Shown: positions 22,818 to 28,989 of the stretch, one piece after another
Position numbering within the stretch: the first letter of the stretch is position 1
Layout: each line of letters opens with the position of its first letter
Assembly: GCA_030626025.1 (NCBI GenBank)
Contig: DAOUPT010000003.1
Span: forward strand, 1 to 64,000
Origin: Anderseniella sp.
GTDB lineage: Bacteria; Pseudomonadota; Alphaproteobacteria; Rhizobiales; Aestuariivirgaceae
Reading direction: 5' to 3'
Length of the DNA stretch: 64,000 bases
Translations under genes and position numbers: made by a program
The notes under the pieces: model-generated
The model's input: only the letters and a program-made list of their open reading frames with translations
What the model was told of the DNA's origin: nothing
Databases searched by the model: none

Positions 22818-25091
22818 ATGAGCAACGACCTCACCCTTCGCCAGAAATTCATCACCAAACCAATGCTCAACTGGGTCCGCAAGGTCTTGCCGACCATGTC
22901 AAATACCGAGCGTGAGGCCCTGGCTGCTGGCACCATTTGGTGGGACGCCGACCTGATGCGCGGCAATCCCGACTTTAAAAAACTGCTCGATACTCCGGTT
23001 CACAAGCTTTCCGACGAAGAACAGGCCTTTATCGACGGCCCGACCAAACGCCTCTGCGATATTGCCGACGACTGGACCACCACATTTGTTGACAAAGATA
23101 TCTCCCCTGAAATCTGGGATATCGTCAAAAAAGAAGGTTTTCTCGGCCTGATCATCCCCAAAGAATATGGCGGCAAGGGTTTTTCCTCTACCGCGATTTC
23201 CGAAATTGTCATGAACATCGCCTCGCGCGGCTCATCCGTTGCAGTTACGGTCATCGTACCCAACTCCCTCGGCCCCGGCGAACTGCTGATGATGTTTGGC
23301 ACCGAAGATCAAAAAAACCACTACCTTCCCCGCCTCGCCGATGGCCGCGATATTCCCGCTTTTGCCCTGACTTCAGAAAATGCCGGGTCTGACGCCACCA
23401 ACATGACCGACATTGGTGTCGTTTGCTATCAGACTTATAAGGGGAAAAAGACCCTCGGTATGCGGGTAAACTGGTCAAAACGCTTTATCTCCCTTGGTCC
23501 GGTCTGCACCGTGCTTGGCTTGGCTTTCATTCTCACCGACCCCGATCACATTCTCGGCGACGAAGAAAACCTCGGTATTACTCTGGCATTGGTGCCAACC
23601 GACACCAAAGGCGTCACCATTGGTCGCCGCCACATCCCTTCCAATCAGGCATTCCCCAACGGCCCAAATCAGGGTGAATACGTCTTTATGCCCATGGACT
23701 GGATTATCGGTGGTCAGGAGCGCATTGGTCAGGGTTGGCGCATGCTGGTCACCGCCCTTGCCGCTGGTCGGGGAATCATGTTGCCAGGTATGTCGGTCGC
23801 TGGCATGAAAGTCGCCGCTTTTTCAACCGGCGCTTATGGCCGGGTTCGCGAGCAGTTTAACCTGCCGATCTCGCGCTTTGAGGGCATTCAGGAAGTTGCC
23901 GCCAATATCGCCGGTGAAACCTATAAAATGGACGCCGCCCGCCGCCTCACCCTGCAAGCCCTTGATATGGGCGAAAAACCCGCTGTTATCTCGGCCATCA
24001 TGAAATACCACGCCACCGAGCGCATGCGTAAAGCTGTTAATGACGCTATGGACGTGCATTCCGGTAAAGCGGTCATTGATGGCCCGAAAAACTACCTGTC
24101 CTCAGCCTATCGTGGCATTCCCATTGCCATCACCGTTGAGGGGGCAAATATCATGACCCGTTCCCTGATGATTTACGGCCAGGGCTCGATCCGCTGTCAC
24201 CCATATATTCAGGCCGAAATTGATGCCGCCCAAAATGAAGATCGTGAGCAGGCTGTACAGGATTTTGACGACATCCTGTTCCGCCACGCGCTGTTTTTCA
24301 CCAAAAACAAACTTCGCGCCACATTCCGCGCATGGACATTCGGCCTCTTGTCATCAAGCCCTGTGGATGGCGAAACCGCCCGCTATTACAAGCAGGTCAA
24401 ACGCATATCCGCTGCCCTTGCCTATCTCAGCGAAACTTTAATGATTGTTCTGGGCGGCTCACTCAAACGCAAGGAAATGCTTTCAGCTCGTCTTGGCGAT
24501 GTACTGTCCGAACTCTATCTGGCGACAGCAACACTGAAACGTTTTGAAGACACCGGTCGTCCGGCTGAAGACTTGCCGCTGGTACATTACGCCTGTCAGA
24601 CATCTCTGAATGCGGCTGACAATGCCCTGCATGATGTCCTGCGCAACTTCCCCAATACAATACTGGGCTGGTTTCTGCGCCTGCAATTACAACCCCTTGG
24701 CGTGCGTTGCAAATTGCCTAAAGACCGGCTGACCACAAAAGTTTCCAACACCATTTCAGAACCAACCGCTGCCCGTGATCGCCTGACGCAAGGCATTTAT
24801 GTTGGTGAGGACACTGAATTGTTCCGCGTTGATGAGGCCATGCGCCTGATGGTCGAGCTTGATCCGGTAAAACAAAAAATGCGCAAAGCCCGCATTCGCG
24901 ATGCCGATGAAGCCCTCGAAAAAGGCATCATCAGCGAGAATGAAGCCGCCCGCATGAAAGACGCGCTGGAAAAAGTCGGCGAAGTGGTCCGGGTTGATGA
25001 TTTCAGCCTCGAAGAAATCACCGGTAAGCCAGCAAAAGGCAAAAAAGCACCGGTTAAACGCCCGGTTAAACGAAAAGGCAAAGCCGCATGA
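22818..25091 (+). CDS. fadE: Acyl-CoA dehydrogenase, FadE type
   Basis: A 757-residue acyl-CoA dehydrogenase, first oxidation step of fatty-acid beta-oxidation, with FAD. The acyl-CoA dehydrogenase N- and middle-domain motifs are visible (GLIIPKEYGGKG, about 111-122; ALTSENAGSDATN, about 184-196), followed by the long C-terminal extension (DUF1974) typical of FadE. Length is close to E. coli FadE (814). The last 24 residues are a Lys/Pro/Ala-rich basic tail (KPAKGKKAPVKRPVKRKG), not part of the family core. The next gene overlaps by four bases. Confidence 0.92.
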   Translation: MSNDLTLRQKFITKPMLNWVRKVLPTMSNTEREALAAGTIWWDADLMRGNPDFKKLLDTPVHKLSDEEQAFIDGPTKRLCDIADDWTTTFVDKDISPEIWDIVKKEGFLGLIIPKEYGGKGFSSTAISEIVMNIASRGSSVAVTVIVPNSLGPGELLMMFGTEDQKNHYLPRLADGRDIPAFALTSENAGSDATNMTDIGVVCYQTYKGKKTLGMRVNWSKRFISLGPVCTVLGLAFILTDPDHILGDEENLGITLALVPTDTKGVTIGRRHIPSNQAFPNGPNQGEYVFMPMDWIIGGQERIGQGWRMLVTALAAGRGIMLPGMSVAGMKVAAFSTGAYGRVREQFNLPISRFEGIQEVAANIAGETYKMDAARRLTLQALDMGEKPAVISAIMKYHATERMRKAVNDAMDVHSGKAVIDGPKNYLSSAYRGIPIAITVEGANIMTRSLMIYGQGSIRCHPYIQAEIDAAQNEDREQAVQDFDDILFRHALFFTKNKLRATFRAWTFGLLSSSPVDGETARYYKQVKRISAALAYLSETLMIVLGGSLKRKEMLSARLGDVLSELYLATATLKRFEDTGRPAEDLPLVHYACQTSLNAADNALHDVLRNFPNTILGWFLRLQLQPLGVRCKLPKDRLTTKVSNTISEPTAARDRLTQGIYVGEDTELFRVDEAMRLMVELDPVKQKMRKARIRDADEALEKGIISENEAARMKDALEKVGEVVRVDDFSLEEITGKPAKGKKAPVKRPVKRKGKAA

Positions 25092-25423
25092 ATGAAGATC
25101 GTTTTGCCAAAACACCAAAACCACCCTACTACGCGGTGATTTTCACCAACCAGCTCAATTCAGATGATGGGAGCTATGGTGAGACAGCCGATCGTATGGT
25201 TGAGCTGGCACAAACCATGCCCGGATTTTTAGGCGTTGAATCAACCCGCGATGAAACCGGCCTCGGTATTACGGTGTCCTATTGGCAAGATGAAAAATCA
25301 ATCGCCAACTGGAAAGCCAATGGCGAGCATATTGAGGCCCGACGCGGTGGAAACGAAAAATGGTACGAGCACTACGAACTACGCGTCGCGAAAATAGAAC
25401 GGGCCTATGACGGGCCGCGATGA
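25088..25423 (+). CDS. Antibiotic biosynthesis monooxygenase-fold protein
   Basis: A 111-residue protein of the ABM dimeric alpha/beta-barrel superfamily. The motif MPGFLGVESTRDE (about 44-56), then ITVSYWQDEKSIANWKANGEH (57-79 region), is typical. Members include small cofactor-free monooxygenases and haem-degrading enzymes, but most are uncharacterised. It starts inside the fadE stop (ATGA), so it is translationally coupled to beta-oxidation; a role in dealing with a side product is possible but unproven. Confidence 0.8.
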   Translation: MNEDRFAKTPKPPYYAVIFTNQLNSDDGSYGETADRMVELAQTMPGFLGVESTRDETGLGITVSYWQDEKSIANWKANGEHIEARRGGNEKWYEHYELRVAKIERAYDGPR

Positions 25424-25458
25424 CAAAAACGAAAACGAATGACTGATCGGAAGACACC

Positions 25459-26853
25459 ATGGTAAAAACAGTAAAGAAAACAGCGGCAAAGAAAGCACCC
25501 GCTAAAAAGGCCGCACCAAAAAAAACGGCCGTAAAAGCCCCCGCCATCAAGCGCCAAAGCAAACTTGGCACCATTGGCCGCCCGGTTTACATTATCGATG
25601 GTGCCCGTACCCCGATGATCAAGGCCGGCAACAAGGCAGGCCCCTTCACCCCGGTTGATCTGGCTGTCGAAGCCGGTCGCCCACTGCTGGCCCGCCAACC
25701 CTTCGACCCACGTGAAATCGATGACGTCATCCTCGGACTGGTCAATGTCCACCCCGATGAAGTGAACCCCGGTCGTGTAGCAGCCCTCCGTCTTGGTTGC
25801 GGTGCTGAAGTTCCCGGCTGGACTGTTCAACGCAACTGTGCCTCAGGTCAGCAATCCATCGATACCGCATGGAAATACATCGCTTCCGGCAATGCCGATC
25901 TTATTCTGGCCGGTGGTGCCGAAGCCCTGTCCCATGCCCCCCTGCTCTTTACCCAAAAAGCCGCCGCGTGGTTCGGACAATTCATGTCAGCCAGATCAAC
26001 AGCGCAAAAACTGGCCGCTTTCCAGAAATTCCGCCCCGATATGCTGCAACCTTCCATCGGCTTGCTGCGCGGCCTGACTGACCCGGTCGCCAAGGTCAAC
26101 ATGGGCGTAACCGCTGAAATCCTTGCCCACCGCTTTGGCATTTCACGCACCGATGCCGACACCTATGCTGTCCAAAGCCATCACCGCCTCGCGGCCGCCC
26201 ACAAAAATGGCCATCTCGAAGAAATGCATTCAATGATCGACCGCAAAGGCAATCTCTATGATCATGATGATGGTGTACGCCCCGACAATTCAGTCGAACA
26301 TCTGGCCAAACTGCGGCCGGCATTCGAAAAACCCTATGGCAAAGTCACTGCCGGTAATTCATCACAAATCACCGATGGCGCCTCATGGACCATTCTGGCC
26401 TCAGAGGACGCGGTTAAGAAATACAAACTCAAACCCATGGCCCGCATCGTAGATTGCGACTGGTCTTCATTAGGCCCCGAAGTCATGGGACTTGGCCCGG
26501 CGCTGGCCTCTGCCAATATGCTGACCCGCAACGGCTTGAAACAAAAAGACGTCGGCGCTTGGGAAATCAACGAAGCCTTTGCTGCTCAAGTTCTTTCATG
26601 CCTGAAAGCCTGGACCGAAAAAGACTTCTGCAAAAACATCCTTGGCCTTGATGAGCCCTTTGGCGAGCTTGATCAGGACATCTTGAACATTGATGGCGGT
26701 GCCATTTCCATGGGCCACCCGGTTGGCACCTCGGGTAACCGCATCACCCTCCATTCCATTCACGCAGCCCGCCGTTTGAACAGCCAGCTTGCCGTTGCTT
26801 CTGAATGCATCGGCGGCGGCATGGGCGGTGCCATGCTGTTAGAAATTCTTTAA
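25459..26853 (+). CDS. Acetyl-CoA acetyltransferase (beta-oxidation thiolase) with basic N-terminal tail
   Basis: A 464-residue thiolase for the last beta-oxidation step. The acyl-accepting Cys is residue 127 in QRNCASG; the later GHPVGTSGNR and CIGGGMGGA hold the catalytic His and second Cys. A family-like start (RPVYIIDGARTP) only begins at residue 41. The first 37 residues are a Lys/Ala/Pro repeat (KKTAAKKAPAKKAAPKK) resembling histone H1 or AlgP tails. ATG 25459 is the annotated start; no other ATG precedes the core domain closely, so the tail seems real. It is followed 12 bases later by the FadB/J-type gene. Confidence 0.9.
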   Translation: MVKTVKKTAAKKAPAKKAAPKKTAVKAPAIKRQSKLGTIGRPVYIIDGARTPMIKAGNKAGPFTPVDLAVEAGRPLLARQPFDPREIDDVILGLVNVHPDEVNPGRVAALRLGCGAEVPGWTVQRNCASGQQSIDTAWKYIASGNADLILAGGAEALSHAPLLFTQKAAAWFGQFMSARSTAQKLAAFQKFRPDMLQPSIGLLRGLTDPVAKVNMGVTAEILAHRFGISRTDADTYAVQSHHRLAAAHKNGHLEEMHSMIDRKGNLYDHDDGVRPDNSVEHLAKLRPAFEKPYGKVTAGNSSQITDGASWTILASEDAVKKYKLKPMARIVDCDWSSLGPEVMGLGPALASANMLTRNGLKQKDVGAWEINEAFAAQVLSCLKAWTEKDFCKNILGLDEPFGELDQDILNIDGGAISMGHPVGTSGNRITLHSIHAARRLNSQLAVASECIGGGMGGAMLLEIL

Positions 26854-26865
26854 GGGAACAAGATC

Positions 26866-28989
26866 ATGAGACAAATTAGCGAACCACGCCTTGCAGCCCT
26901 TGCCGAACTAACTGTTTCGGACCTTGCCATGCCCAACGCAGCAGACAACCAGCCAAAGGGCCTGTCCACCTACAAACACTGGCGCCTTGTCATGGACAAG
27001 GACAACATCCTCTGGGTGTTGATTGACAAAGACAACGAAAGCGCCAACACGCTGGCCGAACCGGTTTTGCGCGAACTAGACAAACTTCTCGACGAAGCCA
27101 AAACCGTAGGCCCCAAAGCCCTCGTCCTGCGCTCGGCCAAAACATCCGGTTTTATCGCCGGTGCCGAGATATCAGAATTCGTCAACATGACCGATGAAAA
27201 TGAGGTCCGCGCTCAGCTCACTGACGCCCTGACAATACTGGACAAACTCGAAAACTTCCCGGCCCCGACCATCGCCCTGTTGCACAAATATTGCCTCGGT
27301 GGCGGCCTCGAACTGGCCCTGGCCTGCAAATACCGCATTGCCACCCCCGATACCAAGCTCGGCTTCCCCGAAGTCCTGCTCGGCCTGCACCCCGGCCTTG
27401 CCGGTGTCTGGCGTTCCCTGCGTATCATGGACCCGGTCAATGCCATGACCATGATGCTGACCGGCAAAAACCTGATTGCCAAAAAAGCCAAACGGCAAGG
27501 TTTGGTTGATCTGGTCACCGAGGAGCGTCACTTTGCCGATGCGGTGCGCGCCGCCGCCAATGGCAAGCTGAAAAAAACCGATGCCAAAGGCACCAAAGGC
27601 ACTGTGCTCAATTTCGGCCCGGCCCGCTCGCTGGTCGCCAGCCAGATGGAGAAACAAACCGCCTCCAAAGCAAAAAAACAACACTACCCTGCCCCATTCT
27701 CCCTGATAGATATCTGGCGCGAGCACGGTGATGATGCGCAAGCAATGCGCAAGGCCGAAACCGATAGTTTCGTCAAACTGATGGTTGGCGACACTTCCAA
27801 AAATCTCGTCCGCGCCTTTTTCCTGCGTGAAAAACTCAAAGCCTATTCCAAAGGCACTGTTCACAACATCAAGCACGTTCACGTAATTGGTGCCGGTGTA
27901 ATGGGCGGCGACATTGCTGCATGGTCAGCAATGCGCGGCTTCACCGTTACCTTGCAAGACCGCGAGATCAAATACATCGCCCCCGCCATCAAACGCGCCA
28001 ATGAGCTATTCAAAAAACGCATTTACACCGAAGGCGAACGCCGCGCTGCCAATGACCGTCTGATGCCCGATGTGAAAGGCGATGGCATTACCAAAGCTGA
28101 CCTGATCATCGAAGTGGTACCCGAAAACCCCGACATTAAAGCCAGCGTTTATGCCGATTGCGAAAAGCGCATGAAGCCCGGTGCCATTCTGGCCACCAAC
28201 ACATCATCGATTTTGCTCGAAACCCTGACCAAAACCCTGAAAAACCCCAAGCGTTTCTGCGGCATCCACTTCTTTAATCCAGTTGCAAAAATGCCGCTGG
28301 TTGAAATCATCACCCACGACAAGCTCGACCCAAAAGTCACCAAGCGCGTCCTCGGTTTCCTCAACGCCATCGACAAGCTGCCCCTGCCGGTCAAATCGGC
28401 TCCCGGCTTCCTCGTCAACCGGGCGCTAACGCCCTATATGGTCGAAGCTTTTCTGGCCTATTCAGAAGGCGTCAAACCCGAACTTATCGACAAGGTCATG
28501 GAAGATTTCGGCATGCCCATGGGGCCCATCGAGCTGGCTGATACGGTCGGCCTTGATGTTGGCCTGCATGTTGCCAAAGTCCTCCAACGCGACCTCAAAC
28601 GCGAAACCCCTGATGCCCCCGACTGGCTCGAAAAGCTGGTCGAAAAAGGCGACCTCGGCAAAAAAACCGGCAAAGGCATCTACAAATGGGTCAACGGCAA
28701 AGCCAAAAAACAAAAAACCGATGATCAGCCCCCCGTTGGCCTAACCGACCGCCTGATCCTCCCCCTCCTCAACGCCGTAGCTGATTGCATGGCCGAAGAT
28801 CTGATCGAGGATAACGATGCCGCCGACGCTGGCATGATTTTTGGCACCGGCTTTGCCCCCTTCACCGGCGGCCCCATAAACTACGCCAAAAAACGCGGCG
28901 TAGATGAGATTGTTGAAAAACTGCAAGCACTGGAAGGAAAATACGGCGCACGGTTTGCAGTATCAAAGGGATGGGAAAAACTGAAGTAG
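26866..28989 (+). CDS. fadJ: Fused enoyl-CoA hydratase/3-hydroxyacyl-CoA dehydrogenase
   Basis: A 707-residue bifunctional beta-oxidation enzyme. The N-terminal crotonase domain has the oxyanion segment SGFIAGAEI (94-102) and both catalytic glutamates, Glu149 (GGGLELALA) and Glu169 (FPEVLLGLHPG). The NAD-binding motif GAGVMGGDI lies at 342-350, followed by the 3-hydroxyacyl-CoA dehydrogenase domains, with HFFNPV and the C-terminal repeat. It forms a complex with the thiolase next door. The gene could equally be called fadB; the missing N-terminal leader of FadB and the neighbourhood favour the FadJ-like alphaproteobacterial type. Confidence 0.92.
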   Translation: MRQISEPRLAALAELTVSDLAMPNAADNQPKGLSTYKHWRLVMDKDNILWVLIDKDNESANTLAEPVLRELDKLLDEAKTVGPKALVLRSAKTSGFIAGAEISEFVNMTDENEVRAQLTDALTILDKLENFPAPTIALLHKYCLGGGLELALACKYRIATPDTKLGFPEVLLGLHPGLAGVWRSLRIMDPVNAMTMMLTGKNLIAKKAKRQGLVDLVTEERHFADAVRAAANGKLKKTDAKGTKGTVLNFGPARSLVASQMEKQTASKAKKQHYPAPFSLIDIWREHGDDAQAMRKAETDSFVKLMVGDTSKNLVRAFFLREKLKAYSKGTVHNIKHVHVIGAGVMGGDIAAWSAMRGFTVTLQDREIKYIAPAIKRANELFKKRIYTEGERRAANDRLMPDVKGDGITKADLIIEVVPENPDIKASVYADCEKRMKPGAILATNTSSILLETLTKTLKNPKRFCGIHFFNPVAKMPLVEIITHDKLDPKVTKRVLGFLNAIDKLPLPVKSAPGFLVNRALTPYMVEAFLAYSEGVKPELIDKVMEDFGMPMGPIELADTVGLDVGLHVAKVLQRDLKRETPDAPDWLEKLVEKGDLGKKTGKGIYKWVNGKAKKQKTDDQPPVGLTDRLILPLLNAVADCMAEDLIEDNDAADAGMIFGTGFAPFTGGPINYAKKRGVDEIVEKLQALEGKYGARFAVSKGWEKLK

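Follow-up and report, generated by a model that had tools for sequence, protein, structure and literature searches.

Lysine-rich tails on FadE and the neighbouring trifunctional-enzyme thiolase of an Anderseniella operon, and a candidate non-AUG thiolase start in its relatives

In a window of 64,000 nucleotides from Anderseniella sp. (contig DAOUPT010000003.1, positions 1 to 64,000), two beta-oxidation enzymes encoded in one operon carry tails rich in Lys, Ala and Pro: a FadE-type acyl-CoA dehydrogenase at its C-terminus, and a 3-ketoacyl-CoA thiolase, the beta subunit of a trifunctional enzyme (TFE), at its N-terminus. We confirmed that both tails are real and extreme for the genome. Within one Hyphomicrobiales clade of about 17 genomes their composition (Lys or Arg with Ala and Pro spacers) is conserved, and their sequence is not. 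Additionally, about 20 relatives of the window appear to begin the thiolase at a candidate non-AUG codon. Taking the start and the tails together, we think it rather probable that an ancestral AUC codon, discriminated by IF3 as in infC, limited the thiolase relative to FadE, that AUG replaced it in the lineage of the window, and that the N-terminus defined by AUC and the C-terminus of FadE became paired polycationic tails in the Hyphomicrobiales clade.

FadE (757 amino acids; 22818-25091, forward strand, like every gene of the operon described here) ends in ...DDFSLEEITGKPAKGKKAPVKRPVKRKGKAA, of which 22-24 residues are rich in Lys, Ala and Pro. The 22-residue tail, GKPAKGKKAPVKRPVKRKGKAA, is encoded at 25023-25088 and has a net charge of +10. 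The thiolase (464 amino acids; 25459-26853) begins with MVKTVKKTAAKKAPAKKAAPKKTAVKAPAIKRQSKLGTIGRPVYIIDG, about 40 residues of the same kind; residues 1-40 (25459-25578) have a net charge of +14 with Arg41 counted in, and MVKTVKKTAAKKAPAKKAAPKKTAVKAPAIKRQSKLGTIG precedes the first core strand of the enzyme (RPVYIIDG). Both tails lie outside the Pfam domains, with ACDH_C ending at residue 729 and Thiolase_N starting at residue 43. They are predicted to be intrinsically disordered: in AlphaFold models, for which the alignments were shallow (27 and 23 sequences), the tails have predicted local distance difference test (pLDDT) scores of roughly 30-50 and no secondary structure. Residues 1-30 of the thiolase have a mean pLDDT of 37-51, with neither strand nor helix ahead of residue 43, and residues 741-757 of FadE score below 50. 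Sequence, domain limits and predicted disorder thus bear out an earlier note on this DNA, which had placed both tails outside the enzyme cores. The position it gave for the start of the FadE tail, 25013, does not fall in frame; the codons for the last 24 residues occupy 25017-25088.

To judge how rare such ends are, we used as background the 633 open reading frames (ORFs) of at least 100 amino acids in 680 kb of the window's genome (GC 0.50; about 18% of the genome). The N-terminal 37 residues of the thiolase have both the highest Lys count (12) and the highest sum of Lys, Arg, Ala and Pro (25) in this set. For the C-terminal 24 residues, the presence of at least 8 Lys, as in FadE, is confined to 3 of the 633 ORFs, and the net charge of +10 ranks seventh.

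Orthologues, with thiolase identities of 64-88%, came from alphaproteobacterial genomes, those of Hyphomicrobiales/Aestuariivirgaceae among them, and most of these genomes are metagenome-assembled; at loci with several start candidates the thiolase start was picked by rule. In close relatives the ends of FadE and thiolase are usually both basic, yet they are mutually unalignable. For example, locus L056 has GKPAKRKPRKAPKAPARARRRSTEPAAE on FadE and (I/M)AAREIKAKPAPRRRRTGSG on the thiolase, and L061 has GRKPRQKRKKATAKT and ARQAASPNKKPAARKPRAKVLASRG. In most close relatives the FadE tail follows a conserved VDDFxxEExTG junction. In the close group both tails carry more net charge than shuffles of their own DNA would give (Stouffer z: thiolase 4.9, FadE 5.0) although the sequences cannot be aligned; therefore it is charge that is maintained, not sequence. 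In distant groups the tail charge is at or below the expectation from shuffled DNA. With z near 5 for either tail, the shuffles thus rule out purely GC-driven junk frames in the close clade; in the distant groups they do not.

The earlier note had stated that normal FadEs and thiolases lack such tails. This holds for gammaproteobacterial FadEs and most of their thiolases, and for orthologues in Bradyrhizobium-sized genomes, where the ends are short or uncharged (L065 and L066, with short basic thiolase tails, are exceptions), but it does not hold for the relatives of the window's own lineage. That note also asked whether the tails are kept together among homologues and named their absence from related genomes as evidence against its reading. 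In most close relatives both are indeed present, although only as composition and not as sequence, whereas one congener (L052, from genome G003) has neither: its FadE ends in ...EQIKSGKTR and its thiolase begins with MAQSSPPAGR. Both tail charges are missing from L132 and L133 too. Separately, a terminal ...AAE or ...AA behind a variable linker is very frequent among alphaproteobacterial FadE orthologues (L040-L048, L056, L063, L148, L155, L156, L158 and others) and is possibly a conserved C-terminal signal.

Both tails reach a charge of at least +4 in 13 of 44 genomes; the thiolase tail alone does so in 2, the FadE tail alone in 7, and neither in the remaining 22. The charges of the two tails are correlated (rho 0.77 over 47 genomes; 0.46, p 0.037, among the 21 closest), and both tails are absent together in L052 and in L132/L133. 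We read this pattern as one clade-level origin followed by two joint losses, suggestive of a shared role of the tails. Several results limit the case for a joint function. Independent contrasts on a tree of the two enzyme cores gave r 0.30 (p 0.06), and 0.24 within the clade (not significant); independent pairs changed in the same direction two to three times and never in opposite directions, too few to test; and the tails are not conserved in sequence. A strong claim of co-evolution therefore fails, as the raw rho of 0.77 falls to a contrast r of 0.30. Because the covariation is no more than suggestive after phylogenetic correction, a joint function of the tails is only plausible. The proposal of the earlier note that the tails are a matched pair survives as far as their co-presence in most Hyphomicrobiales orthologues and their joint losses go, but paired evolution is not significant once phylogeny is taken into account.

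We also considered how the tails might have arisen. A local DNA alignment of the two covers only 22 bases, and its score of 27 stays below the maximum of 30 reached by shuffles (mean 17); a duplication is thus not demonstrated, and a shared DNA origin was rejected. The tails of one genome are slightly more alike than tails taken across genomes (p 0.024), mostly due to the window and L093. Simple-sequence slippage, which the earlier note had named as an outcome that would speak against function, was rejected as well: Tandem Repeats Finder (TRF; minimum score 30) gave one 12-nt unit in 1.9 copies and no larger array.

The thiolase of the window has an ATG at 25459, 5 nt behind a weak Shine-Dalgarno (SD)-like GGAAG (25449-25453). 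With this ATG the window thiolase is not itself a non-AUG gene, and the candidate non-AUG start is a property of the window's relatives. At 16 orthologous loci a 60-codon scan upstream of the core found no ATG, GTG or TTG after the last in-frame stop, which excludes a standard start there. All 16 have AUC (AUU in L062, AUA in L131) preceded, at a distance of 4-11 nt, by an SD in which 4 or more bases match, scored as a simple substring match. The typical candidate start is ATC GCN, compared with ATG GCN in other orthologues. An SD stands before 16 of the 19 in-frame ATC codons at these loci, compared with 78 of the 501 other codons; with the three near-AUG codons pooled, the enrichment has a Fisher p of 5e-10. 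L061 and three species of one genus (L215-L217) have an AUC start candidate behind an SD as well, and in that genus the codons after ATC are conserved (ATC GAG GAA TCC GCG), those before it less so. In total, a thiolase without a usable ATG, GTG or TTG and with AUC, AUU or AUA behind an SD was found in about 20 relatives (L006, L056, L058-L064, L131, L140, L147, L152, L159, L162-L164 and L215-L217).

Two controls bear on these candidates. At the AUC loci the FadE and FadJ-like genes have standard start codons wherever their N-terminus lies in the locus. Furthermore, infC, which is known to start with AUU in E. coli and with AUC in Streptomyces (PMC5472188), was located by tblastn and has AUU, AUA or AUC behind a purine-rich SD-like sequence in 19 of 19 readable genomes (L218-L236); in the window's own genome (L236, G000) the start candidate is AUU, near position 1450. 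On the tree, parsimony makes the alphaproteobacterial ancestor non-AUG with 6 changes, where shuffled labels need 14.6 on average, with L156 and L158 scored as non-AUG though each has a downstream ATG or GTG. Thus, judging from the distribution of start codons, the non-AUG start appears to be ancestral in the Alphaproteobacteria and the AUG of the window's lineage to be later. Candidates for later replacement are the AUG of the window's clade and, in Bradyrhizobium-sized genomes, a TGATG in which the FadE stop and the thiolase ATG share bases (L143, L149, L150, L153, L166, L167, L169 and L170); this overlap suggests translational coupling.

By analogy with infC and sigR, the candidate AUC start is likely to be an IF3-sensitive and deliberately weak site of thiolase initiation relative to FadE. 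Like infC (AUU, AUC or AUA) and Streptomyces sigR (GUC), the thiolase of about 20 relatives has a candidate near-AUG start behind an SD (PMC5472188). It differs from them in being a beta-oxidation enzyme, not a translation or sigma factor, and the window gene uses ATG. We found no published description of an AUC start for a beta-oxidation thiolase, within a partial coverage of the literature. If the AUC start is true, a metabolic enzyme would join the very short list of conserved non-AUG genes, and gene callers that accept only ATG, GTG and TTG would truncate or misplace the N-terminus of this thiolase.

FadE has the N, M and C acyl-CoA dehydrogenase domains of Pfam (Acyl-CoA_dh N/M/1) together with ACDH_C (PF09317), passes NCBIfam PRK13026 (1047.8 bits, cut-off 608), and has ACAD9 and VLCAD as its closest folds. 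The thiolase has Thiolase_N and Thiolase_C, passes PRK08170 (685 bits, cut-off 593), and keeps C127, H420 (the His of the GHP motif) and C450 invariant across 27 orthologues. Its best fold match is human mitochondrial TFE beta (6dv2), and it aligns in sequence with the mature human protein, whose Lys-containing N-terminus and an insert are included. Consistent with a degradative TFE beta subunit, the gene next door (26866-28989) encodes a FadJ-like TFE alpha subunit, an enoyl-CoA hydratase and 3-hydroxyacyl-CoA dehydrogenase (Pfam ECH_1, 3HCDH_N and 3HCDH). On inspection of its sequence, this alpha subunit has no basic tail comparable to those of FadE and the thiolase.

In fold, then, FadE resembles VLCAD and the thiolase resembles TFE beta. 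Human VLCAD/ACAD9 and HADHA/HADHB, the closest folds, are likewise successive enzymes of long-chain beta-oxidation, and VLCAD and the human trifunctional protein (TFP) are peripheral membrane proteins on cardiolipin (PMC4374878, PMC8513871), to which the window proteins are likened here from sequence and models. In VLCAD, cardiolipin is held by lysines of a partly disordered segment, and binding is lost when they are acylated (PMC4374878); this segment is internal, unlike the polycationic C-terminal tail of the window FadE. Human TFE and the anaerobic TFE of E. coli are reported to be membrane-associated, and Lys/Arg surfaces have been proposed to steer anionic acyl-CoA (PMC11301753). The E. 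coli enzyme, FadIJ, is like the window system in that our thiolase falls in the FadI/PRK08170 neighbourhood with a FadJ-like alpha gene adjacent. The window differs in its basic tail, in having FadE upstream in the same operon, and in that its thiolase is not a FadI equivalog, scoring below the cut-offs of PRK08963 (295 against 560 bits) and TIGR02446 (234 against 712 bits).

As the mitochondrial pair binds cardiolipin and positive surfaces have been proposed to steer acyl-CoA, we favour, as a tentative model that may well prove wrong, that the tails seat FadE and TFE electrostatically on anionic membrane, steer acyl-CoA, or do both. The polycationic tails would keep FadE, and the TFE that contains the thiolase, on the anionic phospholipid (cardiolipin or phosphatidylglycerol) of the inner membrane, the site where FAD and NADH are re-oxidized. 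They may also steer, or locally concentrate, polyanionic acyl-CoA intermediates on their way from FadE to TFE. The arrangement would then be a bacterial counterpart of cardiolipin-bound VLCAD and TFP. We infer both this function and the cooperation of the two tails. Besides the unconserved sequence and the non-significant joint evolution, three points count against it: the binding of TFP to cardiolipin is insensitive to lysine acylation (PMC8513871), the location of FadE and FadIJ within the bacterial cell has been named as an open question (PMC9329746), and ribosome-associated proteins of the window's genome carry stretches of this kind too. Our literature searches found no published description of beta-oxidation enzymes with lysine tails. 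An assembly of FadE and TFE bound to the membrane in bacteria would bear on that open question (PMC9329746), and the model is directly testable, as encoded, removable charged tails occur on exactly FadE and TFE beta and a close relative is tail-less.

The chief rival to membrane seating is a habit of the whole lineage, in which disordered ends rich in Lys, Ala and Pro build up on abundant proteins through solubility, weak affinity for polyanions or low constraint, with no role specific to this operon. Such stretches occur in the window's genome on the C-terminus of trigger factor (L182:11006-12445, reverse strand), a NuoE-like 2Fe-2S protein (L184:3735-4838), ribosomal protein L21 (L185:907-1581) and CoxG (L201:4016-4744, reverse strand), so the habit is broader than the operon. 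The rapid change of the tails in length and sequence and their weak covariation after correction for phylogeny fit this explanation as well. It accounts less readily for the rarity of such segments, as only 6 of 633 ORFs pass a filter for Lys/Arg/Ala/Pro segments while two basic tails fall in one operon, for charges above shuffled DNA in the clade but not in distant orthologues, and for the joint losses in two lineages. We regard a lineage-wide habit as possible but doubtful.

The tails might instead bind DNA, RNA or polyphosphate (polyP), or tether the enzymes to polyhydroxyalkanoate (PHA) granules or the nucleoid, as AlgP and PhaF do with their KPAA tails. KPAA peptides bind DNA, and AlgP is found with polyP granules (PMC9239181). 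The window tails are of the identical composition class, disordered polycations rich in Lys, Ala and Pro, and GRPRKA, an AT-hook-like core, occurs in both L093 tails (the FadE C-terminus and the thiolase N-terminus). The description of the tails as histone H1-like in the earlier note is apt for composition alone, since the single 12-nt unit found by TRF leaves no long tandem KPAA domain and the tails do not belong to the AlgP/PhaF class. At 22-40 residues they are much shorter than the 154-residue repeat domain of AlgP, and they sit on metabolic enzymes, with no phasin-like or nucleoid-protein domain. Because the tails are short and lack tandem repeats, binding to nucleic acid or polyP is unlikely. 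We know of no established nucleic-acid role for FadE or thiolase enzymes. Finally, the thiolase tail could be an annotation artefact with the true start downstream, and the FadE tail a chance read-through. The weakness of the SD before the window ATG would fit this. Nevertheless, relatives have a start with an SD at the equivalent position, the window thiolase has, ahead of its first core strand, no standard start other than that of residue 1 (only ATC and ATT without an SD), tail charge exceeds shuffled DNA, and in most close relatives the conserved junction precedes the FadE tail. An artefact is therefore already disfavoured, and we consider it highly improbable.

The stretch between FadE and the thiolase holds a gene for an ABM-domain protein of 111 amino acids (25088-25423; Pfam PF03992), whose start overlaps the FadE stop as ATGA. 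A gene of this kind at this place is confined to the window and its closest relatives, L051, L052 and L093. Elsewhere among the relatives the FadE and thiolase genes are nearly adjacent or overlapping.

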